Assembly (NCBI RefSeq): GCF_020085105.1
Contig: NC_058058.1
Location: 3,419,587-3,483,586, forward strand
Direction: 5' to 3'
Source of the DNA: Siniperca chuatsi
Lineage: Eukaryota > Chordata > Actinopteri > Centrarchiformes > Sinipercidae
Length of the DNA: 64,000 bases
In this document: positions 1 to 44,100 of the stretch, one piece after another
Layout: every line of letters starts with the position of its first letter
Position numbering within the stretch: position 1 is the first letter of the stretch
Made by a program: the position numbers and the translations under genes
Notes under the pieces: model-generated
Seen by the model: only the letters and a program-made list of their open reading frames with translations
Told to the model about the DNA's origin: nothing
Database searches by the model: none

Positions 1-719
1 GTGCATCCGAATGAAGGCTATTTCAGGACTGCACTTACTTACTGTTATAGTTGAGGAATATGGACAGAGCAGCAATACTGGACTACTGTATTTATTTCCA
101 ACTAGTGCTGACACAGTTAGCTGAATAATCGAGTAATTGATCAACAAAAAATTAATAGACAACAATTGTGATGACTGACTCATAATTTATGTCACTTATC
201 ATACAAAAATGCCAAAACATTTTCTTGTTCCAGCTTCTTCTTGCTGCTTTTTTCTCAGTTTGATTTCATTGTAAATTTAATATATTTGGGTTTTGGACTT
301 TTGGTCTGACAAAACAAGACATTTGAAGGTGTCACTGCGGGCTTTGGGAAATTGTAATGAAAAAGTAAGCTGGTTTTACCTCTTTAGGCCTCCAAAAATC
401 ACGTGAATTAAACGTAAATGTGTAAAGGAGAAATCTTCAGTTAAAAGTCTGTGGTTAAACTGCTCACAGCTCATTGACACACACAACCAATGACGAGGCA
501 TCACAACTAGCCAAAAGGTACATTTTAAAAGGGTCAAAAGCCAATTACGTGGTGGTTGGAGGGTTAGAGCAGCTTTTAATACTCAATAGTGACAAATAAA
601 CTTACTTTAGTTGAGTCTCTTTTGGGCAAAATTCCAACCTGTCAAAATCTGGAACGAGGAGAAAAGACATTACACCAGAAATACTTACTGTTACCCACAC
701 ACCCAACTCACACTCCACA

Positions 720-18581: not shown

Positions 18582-19776
18582 TAATGGATTGAATGGGCTG
18601 TGGGAGCCCTCTGATGGGTTTATATTTACCTGCCTGCCTCTGTTTGTTCCATTAGAAAAACTGAAAAAACTAAACAACTCAAAGAAAGGACTTCATCATG
18701 ACAGACTGACATGAAGGACTGCAGCTTCAATTGTATTTTAAAAAAACAACATCAATAAAACCAAATTCTGTCTCTAGTGGCTACATACATCCAAAGCATT
18801 GATTTGATATTGTTTCATTTCTTTCAACCCCAAAGACAGAGCACAGTCGTGTCTTTGTAAAGAGTCTTGAGACCAAAACCAACATAACTCGAGTCCTTTC
18901 TCAATAATGAATGTTTTGCAACTAAGTTCTTTGGCTGTCTTCACATTTTTTTTAATTTTGAGAACACAACAAGAAAAATATTGTGACAGCTGATGTGAAT
19001 GTCCCGTTATTTTTACAGAATAATGCAGCTGGAAGAAAAATTATAATAAATGCTTTTAAGCTTTAAGCCAGATACACAGCCTCAACAAAAGGCTCCTGGT
19101 GGACATAGGGCCTACATATAGGACAGGTCTAGAGCCCTAAAGGGAGGCCCTAGTGGATGTGGAGTCTTAGTTGGTGTTCAGACAGAAAACACTGGTGTGT
19201 TAAAACAAGGGGCTGTGTTGGTGGGGGCGTGTTGCTTCAGGTACCAGTAAGACACTGTGGGAGAAATTTATGGGTATGAAGGAGTGTTTAAGTTATGCAA
19301 TGACATGACAGTTAACCTTCAGACCTGGCATGCTTTATGGGAAAAGATAAGCTGAAGACCTTGGAGATGCTTCACCTTCATAATAAGCATGGATAAGATC
19401 CTGTCTTGGCTGTTAGTCACAGACACTGTGTCTACTCGACCATCTGACAAGCACTTCTGATGCCTTTAAAGAGAGGCTCCTGGTGGATGAAGGGTCTTAA
19501 AATTAGGCTGCTGGTGAGCGTTGAATCTTAAAGTGAGGTTCCTAGTATTCTTAGAGTCTTAAAGAGAGGCTCCTGGTGGACACTGAGCTTTAAAAATGAC
19601 GTTCATCCTCATCAGCCTTTCCCCTGGTGGTCCATTAAACAAGTCAATCCCTTTCAGATCCATCATTAGTCACACTGAGGGCTCAGACAGTGGAAAGATG
19701 CTGCAGCAGATGAGTGTGTGTGTAACTGTAGACTCTGACCCACAGGTTTGAATCCCCTCTTCCCTCCAGTGACAAC

Positions 19777-23764: not shown

Positions 23765-23934
23765 GCTGCTCTCCTCCCAGCTGCTGCTGCTGCTGCTGCT
23801 GCCATCCACCTTCCAGGCCAGACTCCAGTCTGAGGGGAAGCCCTTGTAGGCCAGGCACATGAGCGTGGCCTTCCCCTGTTGCAGCTCCTCGCTGGAGGGG
23901 GGCAGCACCGTTATGGTGGGGACGACTCGACCCA
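23765..23934 (-). pseudogene. CL remnant, 3' half deleted
   Basis: It reads from an intact acceptor (CTGCAG) through [20 protein letters not shown], then [16 protein letters not shown] and a six-serine run to WEES. The sequence then jumps to a 3'-flank block (TTGTTGCTGGCATAAAAACA) that also occurs at 32868-32887. Compared with the CL at 33.1 kb about 350 bp are missing, including the second cysteine and the stop. There is no J nearby. Confidence 0.85.
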
Positions 23935-23980
23935 CTGCAGAGAGAGGGAGATTAATAAAGTTTATATGAGGTAAACTAAA

Positions 23981-24244
23981 GTGGTAGGCTCCGTCTTCAT
24001 CACATGTAGGACCAGACACATTGTTTATAGCTCAAACTATTTAGTCTGGTACCAACAGAGAAATGGAGAAACTCCTAAACTCCTCATTTACGCTACTAGC
24101 AGTCGAGCATCAGGGATTCCAGGTCGTTTTACAGGCAGTGGATCAAACTCTGACTTCACTCTGACCATCAGTGGAGTCCAGACTAAAGGTGCAGCAGTTT
24201 CCTACTGTCAGAGTTTTACATTATCAACAGTCAGGATGTGTTCA
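23981..24244 (+). pseudogene. Type-1 V fragment V24, fused to the 5' intron of the neighbouring CL
   Basis: It starts inside framework 1 ([10 protein letters not shown]) directly after CL-intron sequence. Leader, promoter and the first codons are absent. [35 protein letters not shown] and a cysteine in SYC remain. One base is missing at the CDR3, so the tail is out of frame. The same fusion point is seen in V33, so it predates the duplication of both. Confidence 0.88.
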
Positions 24245-33086: not shown

Positions 33087-33412
33087 TCAGGACTGGGAAC
33101 ACTGGTCTCTCCTCAGTGTCTCTGTGAGCGGAGTCTGGCAGCCCTGGGTGACCTCACAGGTCACAGAGCCCACCTTCCTCCACTGGTCTGCAGGGAGCCT
33201 CAGGGTGCTGCTCCAGCTGTAGTGGCCGTCCCTCTCCAGCACCCCGGGGCTCCTGCTCTCCTCCCAGCTGCTGCTGCTGCCGTCCACCTTCCAGGCCAGA
33301 CTCCAGTCTGAGGGGAAGCCCTTGTTGGCCAGGCACATGAGCGTGGCCTTCCCCTGCTGCAGCTCCTCGCTGGAGGGGGGTAGCACCCTCAGGGTGGGGG
33401 TGACTCGACCCA
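33087..33412 (-). pseudogene. CL exon, full reading frame but splice acceptor lost, no J
   Basis: Light-chain constant domain reading [40 protein letters not shown], four serines, WEES, then [20 protein letters not shown] and RRDQCSQS-stop. Both domain cysteines and the terminal interchain cysteine are present. At the 5' border the acceptor CTGCAG of the other copies reads CTACAT, so no AG remains at the expected site. A V fragment lies directly upstream where a J should be. A minus-strand AATAAA is at about 32923. An in-frame exon that probably cannot be spliced. Confidence 0.8.
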
Positions 33413-33512
33413 ATGTAGAGAGAGAGAGATTAAGAAAGTTTATATGATGTAAACTAAACTCCACCCTGTTGGTTGCAGCAGAGGAGGCTAGTTTATATGA
33501 GATAAACTAAAG

Positions 33513-33785
33513 TGGTAGGCTCTGTCTCCATCACATGTATGACCAGTCAGAATTTTTATAGCTCAAACTATTTAGCCTGGTACCAACAGAGAAATGGAGA
33601 AACTCCTAAACTCCTCATTTACGCTGCTAGCAGTCAAGCATCAGGGATTCCAGGTCATTTTATTGTCAGTGGATCAAACACTGACTTCACTCTGACCATC
33701 AGTGTAGTCCAGACTGAAGATGCAGCAGTTTACTACTGTCAGGGTGCACATTACATCAACAGTAGTGTCAGATCAAAAGTGTCAT
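33513..33785 (+). pseudogene. Type-1 V fragment V33, heptamer lost
   Basis: It has the same fusion to CL intron as V24, starting [11 protein letters not shown]. The frame is open through [15 protein letters not shown] and [17 protein letters not shown]. The CACAGTG heptamer is missing. Only a nonamer-like ACAAAAATC remains at 33786-33794. Leader and promoter are absent. Confidence 0.87.
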
Positions 33786-38078: not shown

Positions 38079-38413
38079 TCAGGACTGGGAACACTGGTCT
38101 CTCCTCAGTGTCTCTGAGAGCGGAGTCTGAGAGCCCTGGGTGGCCTCACAGGTCACAGAGCCCACCTTCCTCCACTGGTCTGCAGGGAGCCTCAGGGTGC
38201 TGCTCCAGCTGTAGCGGCCGTCCTTCTCCAGCACCCCGAGACTCCTGCTCTCCTCCCAGCTGCTGCTGCTGCTGCTGCTGCCGTCCACCTTCCAGGCCAG
38301 ACTCCAGTCTGAGGGGAAGCCCTTGTTGGCCAGGCACATGAGCGTGGCCTTCCCCTGCTGCAGCTCCTCGCTGGAGGGGGGCAGCACCGTCAGGGTGGGG
38401 ACGACTCGACCCA
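38079..38413 (-). CDS. Immunoglobulin light-chain constant exon (CL), the only intact copy
   Basis: Constant domain of a teleost kappa-like (L1-type) light chain. An acceptor CTCTCTCTGCAG precedes the exon. It reads [20 protein letters not shown], then [20 protein letters not shown], a seven-serine run, [38 protein letters not shown], and ends RRDQCSQS. Domain cysteines (LMC, VTC), the tryptophan and the penultimate interchain cysteine are all present. It is 110 residues, usual for CL. The phase fits the J at 39.3 kb: the last J base plus TG makes the first codon. A minus-strand AATAAA lies at about 37922-37927. J and CL are 878 bp apart. Confidence 0.93.
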
Positions 38414-39291
38414 CTGCAGAGAGAGAGAGATTAAGAAAGTTTATATGAGGGAAACTAAACTCCACCCTGTTGGTTGCAGCAGAGGAGGCTACTAGTTCTG
38501 TTGGTCTTCCTCAGATGGAATGAAACTGATCTTAAACGTTTCACTTCCCTCTTTGAGCTCAGTAACCATGGCAACAGACAGGCATCACTGCTGAACCACA
38601 AGAACAGACAGGTTTCAGTACTATAGATAAAAAGTTAAGACGTTTTAGTCAGGTGTATATTTTTTAATTAATAAACTAAAAATTCAAAGATTCAGAGTTT
38701 AAAAAAAGCACACATAAGATGAAGACTGTGAGGCTTTTATTGCTTCAACTTTCTAAAATATTTCTTGTCTCAATCCAAAACCTAATAAATGATAATATGT
38801 GTTTGTTCTCTTTATGTAAGTAGGAATCATCACTGAACAGTCAGGCTTCATTACTGAAACATTCAAATTAATATTGTTAACTACTGAACTAGTTTTTTAA
38901 ACTCTCATAGAAAATATTCCGAATGGCTTTAAAATCATTAGTCTGGGAGAAAGATCGAGTGATACCCATCCACATTAAACCCTGAACCAAAAATTTGTGG
39001 CAGAGTTCTTGAGCCGGAATATTAAAACTTCAAAAACTAAATAAATATACTTTATTCATAAGGAGTAATGCAGTATAATTTTCTTAGAAGAATGAACTGA
39101 ATTACAGTTCATTGCAACAAGATTATTCATTGGAGTGGATTTTAGTCTGGTTAACGACACTGAGAAGCCTTCAAGAATTGTTGCAAATTTATCAAATTTC
39201 AATTAGCAGACAAAATATTGTAGAAAGGTCTATGAAATTCAAATTTAATACATACAAAATTTGGGTTATTAAAGGAGTCATATGTACTTAC

Positions 39292-39329
39292 AGTTAACTT
39301 CCAGTCTGGTTCCTCCACCGAATGTGTAC
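39292..39329 (-). CDS. JL segment, the only intact one
   Basis: 38 bp encoding [12 protein letters not shown], with the FGXG motif that forms the beta-bulge of light chains. It is followed by a consensus donor (GTAAGT). The leftover base is in phase with CL at 38413. Same strand as CL, opposite to every V. Confidence 0.95.
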
Positions 39330-39368
39330 CACAGTGATACAAAGTCATTGAGCCGCCGTACAAAAACC
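39330..39368 (-). promoter_or_regulatory. JL RSS, 23-bp spacer
   Basis: Read on minus: nonamer GGTTTTTGT (39368-39360), 23-bp spacer, heptamer CACTGTG (39336-39330). It pairs by the 12/23 rule with the V signals. Both V and J heptamers face the same way on the chromosome, so joining inverts the DNA between them. Confidence 0.95.
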
Positions 39369-39900
39369 TCTCACTGTAGAGAGACACGGCTCTCTGACTT
39401 TGACACAAACAAACTCACCAAAGACATTCACAGTTTACCCAGTTTATTTAATAACTAGTTAAAGTGTTTAAAAAAATATTCCCCAACTCTGAATATGTAG
39501 GCCTATTTAACCTTTTCTTCGTGAAATGTTAAACATCTGCAAGCAATATTCATTTCTCTTTCAGTAAAATAAATCGAAATAAGATATTTCAAAAGAAAAA
39601 CTCTAAACTAAAAGCTGTCATATGTAAATAATTATCATAAATGCATGTTTATTGTAGATTATGATAAATGAAAAAGTAATTTGCTTAAATTTGTCGATGT
39701 TGATTTTTGTGGTAGTGAATTAGGGAGAATTTACAAAATAGTCAGGAAGAAAATGCGTCCATCATATTAAAGACAAAGCCACTTATAAATGAGTGCTCAA
39801 ACATTCATAATCAATACTTTTCTAAACTGATTGATCCATTGATAAACAGCATCATCAGAGTCCCTGCTGGAGTCAGTCAGAGCATTTCCATAGAGAGCCA

Positions 39901-39946
39901 CTTTGCATCAGCAGCACCATGCTCCAGTGCTCTGGGAGAGTTTATA
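39901..39946 (+). promoter_or_regulatory. V40 promoter: octamer-like plus TATA-like box
   Basis: CTTTGCAT at 39901-39908, TTTATA at 39941-39946. Confidence 0.78.
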
Positions 39947-40026
39947 GTCCTGAGAGTTGAACACTGGATGACTGACAGCTGTCCTTCATGACAACAGAAG
40001 CCACAGAAATCCTCCTCATCAAAAAC

Positions 40027-40500
40027 ATGACTTTGATCTCCGTCCTCATCTGGACTCTCCTCTGCTGCTGCTTCACAGGTAAAGTCCAGAGAATCAAGCT
40101 CCTCTCCTCTGTGAACATCCGTCCCTCTGAAATGAAGCCGACAAAACCATGATGCTGCCTTATGTTTTTGTCTCTGTATCCTCAGAGTCCAGAGGCCAGG
40201 TCACAGTGACTCAGCCTGGAGCAGTGAGCTCTGCTCTGGGAGGCTCCGTCTCCATCAGCTGTAGGACCAGTCAGAATGTTCGGAATTCAAACTCTTTAGC
40301 CTGGTACCAACAGAGAGATGGAGAAACTCCTAAACTCCTCATTTACCAGGCTAGCACTCGAGCATCAGGGATTCCAGGTCGTTTTACAGGCAGTGGATCA
40401 AACTCTGACTTCACTCTGACCATCAGTGGAGTCCAGACTGAAGATGCAGCAGTTTACTACTGTCAGAGTGCACACAACATTAACAGCCAGTGGTTGTTCA
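40027..40500 (+). CDS. Type-1 V segment V40 (leader + V exon), next to J
   Basis: Leader 40027-40078 ([17 protein letters not shown]), V exon 40186-40500, with phase-1 splice matching. It reads [65 protein letters not shown], then [13 protein letters not shown] up to the heptamer. All framework anchors are present and the frame is open. It is the V nearest to the intact J, in opposite orientation; inversion of about 1.2 kb would join them and flip the V promoter onto the J-CL strand. Confidence 0.95.
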
Positions 40501-40528
40501 CACAGTGGAAAAGCGTCATACAAAAACC
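40501..40528 (+). promoter_or_regulatory. V40 RSS, 12-bp spacer
   Basis: CACAGTG, 12 bp (GAAAAGCGTCAT, two changes from the other copies), ACAAAAACC. Confidence 0.93.
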
Positions 40529-40637: not shown

Positions 40638-41111
40638 GACAATATCATCAAGCAAATTAAACATTTAACCATTGTTGCTTTTAACCACACATGAACATGT
40701 AGCAAAATATGTTCAATGACAAAAAATGATCTTGATGAAAATCAAATTACTTTCTCTATCACAGCTTCTCACCATCCATTCATGTCCCATTATAATCCCA
40801 TGATGTTATCTGATTTGCCAATGAATAGAAAGGAGCCAAAGTGGGACAGGTAATGAGAAAAGTCTTGGTCATAACATTAGACTAAATACTGGATCACAGC
40901 TATTTCCACTATATGCACAAAATATTAAAATATGAAGACACAGATCAGCATCAGAAACCTTCATGATGGCCCAAACAAAACCTGTACATCCTCAAATATC
41001 AGAAAATATTGTTTAAAATATAAAATCTTGTGTCATCTAAAGAAAAGATGAATAGGAATTGTAATAATAACAAAGGACAGAAGAAAGTGACTCTTTTTGA
41101 TGTAACTATAT

Positions 41112-44100
41112 CAGAATCAGAATCAGAAATACTTTATTGATTGCAATCATGTGTACTGTCAAGTTGAGTGTAGCAGATTTAACCAGCTTATTAGGCAATG
41201 GATATTGCACAGCAGTAATATAGTTTAATAAATATCAACAAACATGGAATTATTAAACTGAGAACAGAGTATATTGCACAGGAGTAAGAGAATAATGCAC
41301 AATATTTTAGGTATTGCAGTAATGTTAATGATCCAATGTCCAATGTGTAATATCAGTGCCAGTTTCCCTGACACTTAGAGGGAAGAGTTAAAGAGTTTGA
41401 TGGCGACAGGCAGGAATGACTTCCTGTGGCGCTCTGTGGTGCTTTTTGGGGGAATGAGTCTTCCGCTGAAGGTACTCCTTTGTTTAGCCAGCACGTCGTG
41501 GAGTGGGTGGGAAACATTGTCCAAGATGGCATGTAGTTTGGCCAGCATCTTCCTCTCTGACACCACCGACAGAGAGTCCAGCTCCAACCCCACAATGTCA
41601 CTGGCCTTACAGATCAGTTTGTTGAGCCTGTTAGCGTCCGCTACCCTCAACCTGCTGCCCCAGGATGCAACAGCATACAGGATAGCACTGGCCACCAGAG
41701 ACTCATAAAACATCTTCAGCATTGTTGTTGAAGGACCTCAGCCTCCTCAGAAAATAGAGGCGGCCCTTCATATAGAGGGCTTGAGTGTTCTTAGCTCAGT
41801 CCAGTTTATGGTCCATATGTAGTCCAAGGTACTTGTAGTCCTCAACAATGTCCATACTGACCCCCTGAATGGAGACAGGGGTCACTGGTGCCTTGGCCCT
41901 ACGTAAATCTACAACCAGCTCCTTAGACTTTGTCGCATTGAGCTGCAGATGGTTCTGCTCACACCATGAGACAAAGTTACCCACAACAGCCCTGTACTCA
42001 GACTCATCACTCTGATACATCCCACCACAGCAGAGTCATCAGAAAACTTCTGAAGGTGGCAGGACTCCGTATGGTAGCTGAAGTCTGTGGTGTAGATAGT
42101 GAAGAGGAAGGGAGAGAGGACGGTCCCCTGAGGAGCCCCAGTGTTGCTGACCACGCTGTTCGACACATAGTGCTGCAGATGCACATGCTGTGGTCTGCCA
42201 GGTAGTCCACAATCCAGGACACAAGGGGGGCATCCACCTACATCGCTGCCAGCTTCTCACCCAGCAGGGCTGGCCAGATGGTGTTGAAAGCACTGGAGAA
42301 GTCAAAAAACATGATCCTCATTGTGCTTGCCGGCTTGTCCAGGTGGGTGTGGATGCGGTTCAGTAGGAAGATGATGGCCTCCTCAACTCCCAGCCGGGCT
42401 TGTACGCAAACTGAAGGGGGTCCAAGAGGGGTCTGACCATGGGCTGCAGCTGTTCCAGCACCAGTCTCTCCAGGGTCTTCATTATGTGGGAGGTCAGTGC
42501 CACCGGTTTGTAGTACTTAAGACACTTGGGCACGGCGTCTTCGGCACAGGAACAAGGCAAGATGTCTTCCACAGAATAGGGATGCTTTGAAGACTCAGGC
42601 TCAGGTTGAAGACATGTTGAAGGACTCCACATAGCTGGGGGTACAGGCTTTTAGCACCCGGGGCAAACGCCATCGGGGCCTGCAGCCTTGTTTGAGTGGA
42701 GTTTCATCAGCTGTCCTCTCACCTGGTCAGCAGTCATGCACACAGCAGAGGTTAGAGGCGGGGGAGAGGGGGAGTCATCAGTCATGAGAGGGCCGTTAGC
42801 CTGAGAGCCAGTTGAGGGGGGAAATAGAAATCTCCCAGGAAGATGGAGGAGGGGGGAGCAGTGGACTCAGAGGAGTCTGGGGGCCGACAGCAGCTGAGTT
42901 AGAGGGGATGAGCAGGAACTGGTGTGTTGAATCTGTTAAAGAACAGATTATGTTCATTGGCCCTGTGCAAGCTGCCTTCAACTCCTCTGCTGCCAGTCGG
43001 TCTGAAGCCAGTGATGATCATGCTGTTCCAGACCTCTCTCATGTTGTTCTGCTGGAGTTTCCACTCCAGCTTCCTCCTGTACTTCTCCTTGGCCTCCCTG
43101 GTCTTCACCTTCATATCAGCCTGGATTTCCCTCACCTCCTCCCTATTACCATTGTTAAAGGCCCTCCTCTTGGCATTCAGGATATCTTTGATGTCCTTTG
43201 TTACCCACGGTTTGTTATTTGGATAACAATGGACCGTCTTGGTTGGGACATTGCAGTCCACACAGAAGTTAATGTAGCCAGTGATGCACTCAGTAAGCCC
43301 GTCAATGTCCTCTCCATGAGGCTAACAGAGTGCATCCCAATTTGTCACCTCAAAACATCCCTGCAGTGTCTCAAAGGCTTCCTCTGACCATCTCCTCACT
43401 GTCCTTGTGGTCGCAGTCTGCCTTTTAACAAGAGGCACATAGCAGGGTTTGAGGTGAACCTGATTGTGGTCTGACCTGCCCAAGGGGGGGAGGGGGGAGC
43501 TGTATGTATCCTTAACGTTAGCATACAGCAGGTCCAGTGTTCTCTCCTCTCTAGTAGGACAACTCACATACTGGGTGAAATTAGTCAGTGTTGTTGAAAC
43601 ACTGACATGGTTGAAGACAACCGAGATTAATATGAGTGCACTCGGGAGCTGAGTCTGGAGTTTTGCTATGGCGGTGTGAATGGCTTTGCACGCAGATGCT
43701 GGGGTAGCAGAGAGGGGGATGTAAACAACCACAGCAATGGCATGTGAGAATTCACGTGGCAGATAATATGGCCGGAATCCCACAACTAACAGTTCTATGT
43801 CCGGGCTACAGATGCTCTGCTTGATAGTAACGTGACCAGGATTATACCATCTGTTGTTGACCAGAACAGCAAGCCCGCCGCCTTTCAGCTTACTGCTCCC
43901 GGTGAGATCCCTGTTGGCCCGAACAGTCTGAAAGCCGTCGATGGAAACGTTATGATCTGGGATTTTCTGGTGTAGCCATGTCTCTGAGAAGCACATCAAA
44001 CTACACTCACTGACTCCGGGCTAACACCGTTAGCTTGTCCATTTTATTCGCCAGTGATCTCACGTTGTCCATGACGAGAGAAGGCAGACATGGCTTAATC

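Follow-up and report, generated by a model that had tools for sequence, protein, structure and literature searches.

The stretch of DNA analysed here (the window, 64 kb) corresponds to bases 3,419,587-3,483,586 of the 28.8-Mb contig C17, within a searched genome of 719 Mb and 65 contigs. It contains a light-chain constant exon (CL38), a J segment (J39) and a V segment (V40), which together form the C38-J39-V40 unit (Table 1). The original prediction had placed J39 and CL38 on the minus strand and V40 on the plus strand, with RSS spacers of 23 and 12 bases, and all of these coordinates, strands and spacers were found to be exact. Following the split codon, CL38 starts with GRVVPTLTV, and its C1-set Pfam match was obtained with a CL38 copy that is one Ser shorter than the sequence in the window. 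The solved structures matched by V40 are antibody light chains and scFvs, and they add nothing on mechanism. The distance from the octamer-like element to the ATG of V40 is shared by most leader-bearing V of the array, and the V40 RSS spacer differs at two places from the spacer common to most V here. The exact pattern CACAGTG-N22-24-ACAAAAACC occurs only once in the window, at J39, and exact 12-RSS occur eight times, all on plus and including the V40 signal, with an expectation of 0.00 for either signal (100 shuffles). Sequence to the right of V40, at about 41080-42000, reads like a dispersed repeat.

Table 1. Features of the C38-J39-V40 unit (positions in the window) and J-C units further right (positions on contig C17).
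Feature	Position	Strand	Remarks
AATAAA	37922..37927	-	candidate poly(A) signal, ~150 bp past CL stop
CL exon (CL38), subtype A	38079..38413	-	open to TGA stop; C1-set Pfam match
CL38 acceptor CAG	38414-38416	-	in-silico splicing
J-C intron	38414..39291	-	GTAAGT donor 39286-39291
J39 segment	39292..39329	-	FGGG motif, GTAAGT donor
J39 23-RSS	39330..39368	+	CACAGTG-23-ACAAAAACC read on plus; exact match
Octamer-like promoter element CTTTGCAT	39901..39908	+	126 bp upstream of V40 ATG
TATA-like TTTATA, V40	39941..39946	+	
V40 leader exon	40027..40078	+	52 nt, then GTAAAG
V40 exon	40186..40500	+	open, GT/AG splice sites, V-set Pfam match
V40 12-RSS	40501..40528	+	CACAGTG-12-ACAAAAACC; exact match
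Stretch flipped by V40-J39 joining	39330..40500		1,171 bp; in-silico inversion
J-holding segment absent from J-less units	39218..39796	.	local alignments, edges approximate
Intact J-C unit	J at C17:3,511,262		open CL
Intact J-C unit	J at C17:3,587,974 and 3,588,362		open CL
Intact J-C unit	J at C17:3,601,707 and 3,602,068		open CL
Intact J-C unit	J at C17:3,654,066 and 3,654,451		open CL
J pair	C17:3,554,416/3,554,797		CL frame shifted near its end

Intact V segments in the window are not limited to V40. Six of the ten V loci (V21, V40, V46, V50, V53 and V63) have a leader, splice sites, an open exon and a 12-RSS; V23 and V25 are without a leader match and V33 is without a leader match or RSS. 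V56 belongs to another V family, whose leader is outside the scope of the V40-family leader query, and has no RSS in reach. CL38 is the only CL copy of the window that is both full length and provided with an acceptor. The frame of CL33 is open over 107 residues but lacks an AG acceptor, and the remaining CL copies of the window are truncated, frameshifted or stopped. The CL copies at 23768-24214 and 33090-33763 lie 55 and 108 bp, respectively, from a V for which no leader match was obtained, and these two CL/V pairs look like copies of one deletion, as the V alignment begins at the identical residue in both. J39 is the only J found in the window. The only other candidate, at 18842 (CACAGTC, ACCAAAACC), is a weak 23-RSS-like signal adjoined by an FG-containing frame, and its flank is not J-like.

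The window is the left end of a larger array of the kappa type (L1/L3). We searched a 314-kb stretch (C17:3,389,587-3,703,586) by tblastn, with two V sequences and one CL sequence as queries, and found 56 V loci, all on plus, and 30 C loci, all on minus; damaged copies are included in both numbers, and a CL fragment near 20.5 kb of the window, seen at a looser limit, stands outside the count of 30. The last 10 kb of the stretch yielded no V or C locus in this search. The prediction that all heptamers face one way was confirmed on the larger scale, with 46 of 46 exact 12-RSS and 12 of 12 exact 23-RSS on plus. J coding sequence, always on minus, adjoins ten of these twelve 23-RSS. The other two, at C17:3,488,686 and 3,671,721, are exact J-type signals alongside which no J coding sequence was found, and these could perhaps still be cut. 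The distance to the right from each 23-RSS to the nearest V signal is 1,010-1,404 bp in all twelve cases, and that of the J39 unit, predicted to be about 1.2 kb, is 1,171 bp. In addition to 12-RSS V segments, 23-RSS J segments and the opposite polarity of V and J/C, the array has further features of a kappa-type locus, namely repeated V/J/C mini-clusters (several of which are J-less), V-set and C1-set domains and J segments with an FGxG motif. The V orientation could in principle be an assembly error, an objection that the prediction itself had raised. We found nothing in its favor. The consistent polarity of the 56 V and 30 C loci and the exact RSS, all on plus, speak against this, as does a sister array located some 1.6 Mb from this one, in which V and J signals keep this polarity and, in three stretches, V and C do so too; we consider such an error to be extremely improbable.

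The sister array (C17:1,577,183-1,802,474) contains at least 42 exact 12-RSS and at least 23 J signals (up to three mismatches), all on plus; J signals are thus relatively more numerous than in the array of the window (12 to 46). The three stretches of it that were analysed contain J-bearing units of both C subtypes. Further groups of 12-RSS are located at C15:19.997-20.067 Mb and C13:1.37-2.26 Mb. Within each half of the C15 group, J-like 23-RSS point in the same direction as the V signals, and this group is therefore also likely to join by inversion.

The heptamers of V40 and J39 both read CACAGTG on plus. As the two signals read the same way, a germline 12/23 join between them has to proceed by inversion and deletion is impossible. 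Joining by inversion with a signal joint kept on the chromosome, as had been predicted, is thus dictated by the heptamer geometry, and it could be reproduced in silico: V40 abuts J39 on minus, with the coding joint at 39329/39330, and the 12/23 signal joint is kept at 40461-40528. Signal joints had been expected near both 39.3 and 40.5 kb; the one at about 40.5 kb is borne out in silico, whereas the boundary at 39.33 kb would hold the coding joint. A blunt join of untrimmed V40 and J39 is out of frame in silico, which is a frequent occurrence. When 0-8 bases were taken off V40 and 0-6 off J39, with no bases added, 20 of the 63 combinations gave an open chain after splicing to CL38, the first of them printed being 245 residues long. 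We searched the assembly for a signal joint carrying a J39-type signal (two heptamers plus seven spacer bases, up to one mismatch) and found none; as this is expected of germline DNA, it neither supports nor refutes joining.

We propose that RAG would cut at the J39 23-RSS (39329/39330) and at the 12-RSS of a V segment (40500/40501 for V40). The intervening DNA would then flip, so that the coding ends meet, and the product would read V-J-intron-CL in one direction with the V promoter as driver, while the heptamer-to-heptamer signal joint would stay in the chromosome. By the same geometry, longer inversions could bring any plus-strand V to J39 from the left or the right, and V40 could likewise join other J segments. 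RAG1 matches without internal stops are present on contig C4, and we infer that V40, J39 and C38 are cleaved, joined and expressed in B cells. It is also conceivable that V40 and J39 are mostly joined secondarily, that is, by a deletional join after an earlier inversion involving another J. An inversion spanning only one of the two partners reverses their relative polarity, and in zebrafish inversional joins are reported to link different clusters over distances of up to 81 kb (PMC3014032). But the V40 signal is the one nearest to J39, and a primary join across these 1,171 bp requires no earlier event, so that we regard secondary joining as an unlikely main route. Signals that might delete the locus were also considered. 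Exact heptamers within CL exons, as deleting elements, were absent from the matched stretch of all 30 C loci. An iRS-like signal, the intronic CACAGTG-11-ACTAAAAYC on minus, occurs at three places (window 21365, minus; C17:3,561,464 and 3,639,092), at least two of which are in introns of J-less units; five of the eight aligned J-less units either lack its heptamer or have a changed form of it, the J39 unit also has a changed form, and we therefore rejected the signal as not being a conserved part.

Taken together, we conclude with a probability of roughly 0.93 that C38-J39-V40 is a germline unit of a teleost kappa-type (L1/L3) light-chain array that is joined by V-J inversion. It offers a clean, annotated teleost light-chain unit of the inversion-joining kind in a chromosome-scale assembly.

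According to the original prediction, V, J and CL occur together in undamaged form nowhere else in the window. This is correct but hinges on the limits of the window, as another four intact J-C units follow within 200 kb to the right (Table 1), the next intact J being 52 kb away from J39. J39 is therefore one choice among several. The C loci fall into two subtypes, A, in which the CL exon starts with GRVV, as in CL38, or a decayed form of it, and B, which starts with GDAR; their introns also differ. J39, which ends with LEVN, belongs to the only J-bearing A unit found in this array, and the other nine coding J segments, ending with LDVGS, are all B-type. One might therefore speculate that J39-C38 is an intact-looking but little-used relic and that the B-type units to the right supply the light chains: all four intact units there are B-type, three of them have two J segments, the aligned sister units have lost their J, and most A-type CL copies are damaged, one exception being the CL at 3,582,951, which is open and has an acceptor but no J found alongside. 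All tested parts of J39-C38 (RSS, splice sites and frame) are nevertheless intact, and, on small numbers, CL38 looks constrained in its changes relative to the A-type CL exons of units that have a J. Compared with two such CL exons of the sister array, CL38 has three nonsynonymous changes against four and three synonymous ones (pN 0.012 versus pS 0.053 and 0.040; 6-7 changes each). The corresponding values are pN 0.026-0.038 and pS 0.033-0.060 against five B-type CL exons, and comparison with three CL exons from J-less units gave pN 0.036-0.039 and pS 0.040-0.053. Since the changes are few and pN and pS lie closer together in the latter two comparisons, these rates weakly support a possible constraint on CL38. 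On balance, we think it improbable that J39-C38 is a relic, and we favor a functional unit that joins by inversion.

How the A-type units might have lost their J can be seen from eight J-less units that were aligned to the J39 unit. Their intron passes directly into the sequence upstream of V, and about 580 bp including J are absent (Table 1). In some of these units the CL starts as in subtype B, so that units are mosaics. The A-type acceptor and exon start gave at least 12 genome matches (up to three mismatches), all on minus and all in this array; the sister array has A-type CL exons that this pattern does not pick up, so that the subtype is counted incompletely, and genome pattern counts are lower bounds throughout. 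The J39 end plus donor gave at least six matches at the same limit, J39 itself and five at 1.71-1.80 Mb on C17. Two units fetched from this 1.7-Mb array have an A-type CL with J in place, and their intron partially matches that of the J39 unit (~91% over some 620 bp including the CL exon). Given these J-bearing A units, it appears more likely that the presence of J is ancestral and its loss derived. Our literature search on J-less C units in teleosts, which was limited in scope, retrieved nothing on point, and descriptions may exist. We tentatively put forward, as a possible scenario, that the array is shifting from a mini-cluster to a translocon-like organization, in which the J-bearing ~580 bp were deleted from an ancestral C-J-V unit, the J-less unit then multiplied as a module that carries V, and J39-C38 was left as the last complete A unit of this array. 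If this were true, many V segments would rely on a small set of J-C units, which they would reach by long inversions. The J-less sister units provide material on how antibody loci of the cluster type lose J and also bear on whether V segments reach distant J-C units through longer inversions.

The V segments of the array are uniform in their leaders and divergent in their CDRs. A leader and donor like that of V40 (57-58 of 58 bases identical) was found in 41 of the 56 V loci (window 21641-63292, L009-L033). The remaining diversity values refer to the 36 open V that passed the filter (20 of the 56 loci did not); CDR3 is shifted in one of these 36. Among these, there are 26, 11 and 21 distinct forms of CDR1, CDR2 and germline CDR3, respectively. 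The values of pS and pN are 0.032 and 0.030 for the framework, 0.217 and 0.278 for CDR1, 0.073 and 0.207 for CDR2 and 0.543 and 0.189 for CDR3. Uniform leaders combined with divergent CDRs fit short-tract copying, and the CDR2 rates fit selection for change, whereas those of CDR3 do not.

The opposite polarity of V and J/C and inversional joining are already published in teleosts, and J39-C38-V40 is a new example; both are also covered by a review (PMC5192425, in the part used here). In the relevant parts of the respective papers, inversion is inferred for torafugu and Atlantic cod and shown for zebrafish (PMC5241823, PMC11223323, PMC3014032). In the zebrafish light-chain clusters on chromosomes 1 and 19, V is opposite to J/C, V and J have one-turn and two-turn RSS, and inversion within and between clusters was inferred by matching cDNA to BAC sequence (Zimmerman et al., 2008; PMC3014032). 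The layout described here is the same in another species, but many of its units are J-less, and the portion of the zebrafish description drawn on here contains none of this kind. In torafugu L3, and in L1 save one named exception, V is likewise opposite to J/C, the V 12-RSS is made up of CACAGTG and ACAAAAACC, and inversion has been proposed from either side of J-C, according to the sections of PMC5241823 that deal with these loci. By the same sections, the 52-nt leader exon and the TTTATA element of V40 agree with torafugu L3 V, unlike those of L1 V (40-nt leader and TTTAAA), and the V40 leader intron of 107 bp matches neither of the L1/L3 lengths (84-85 or 137). The kappa locus of Atlantic cod on chromosome 5 consists of tandem V-J-C mini-clusters, in which most V are inverted relative to J-C and the counts are nearly equal, with 104 V, 98 J and 99 C in the part of PMC11223323 that reports them. 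The array described here differs from this in that its 314 kb comprise 56 V loci, 30 C loci and 10 coding J segments, with damaged copies counted.
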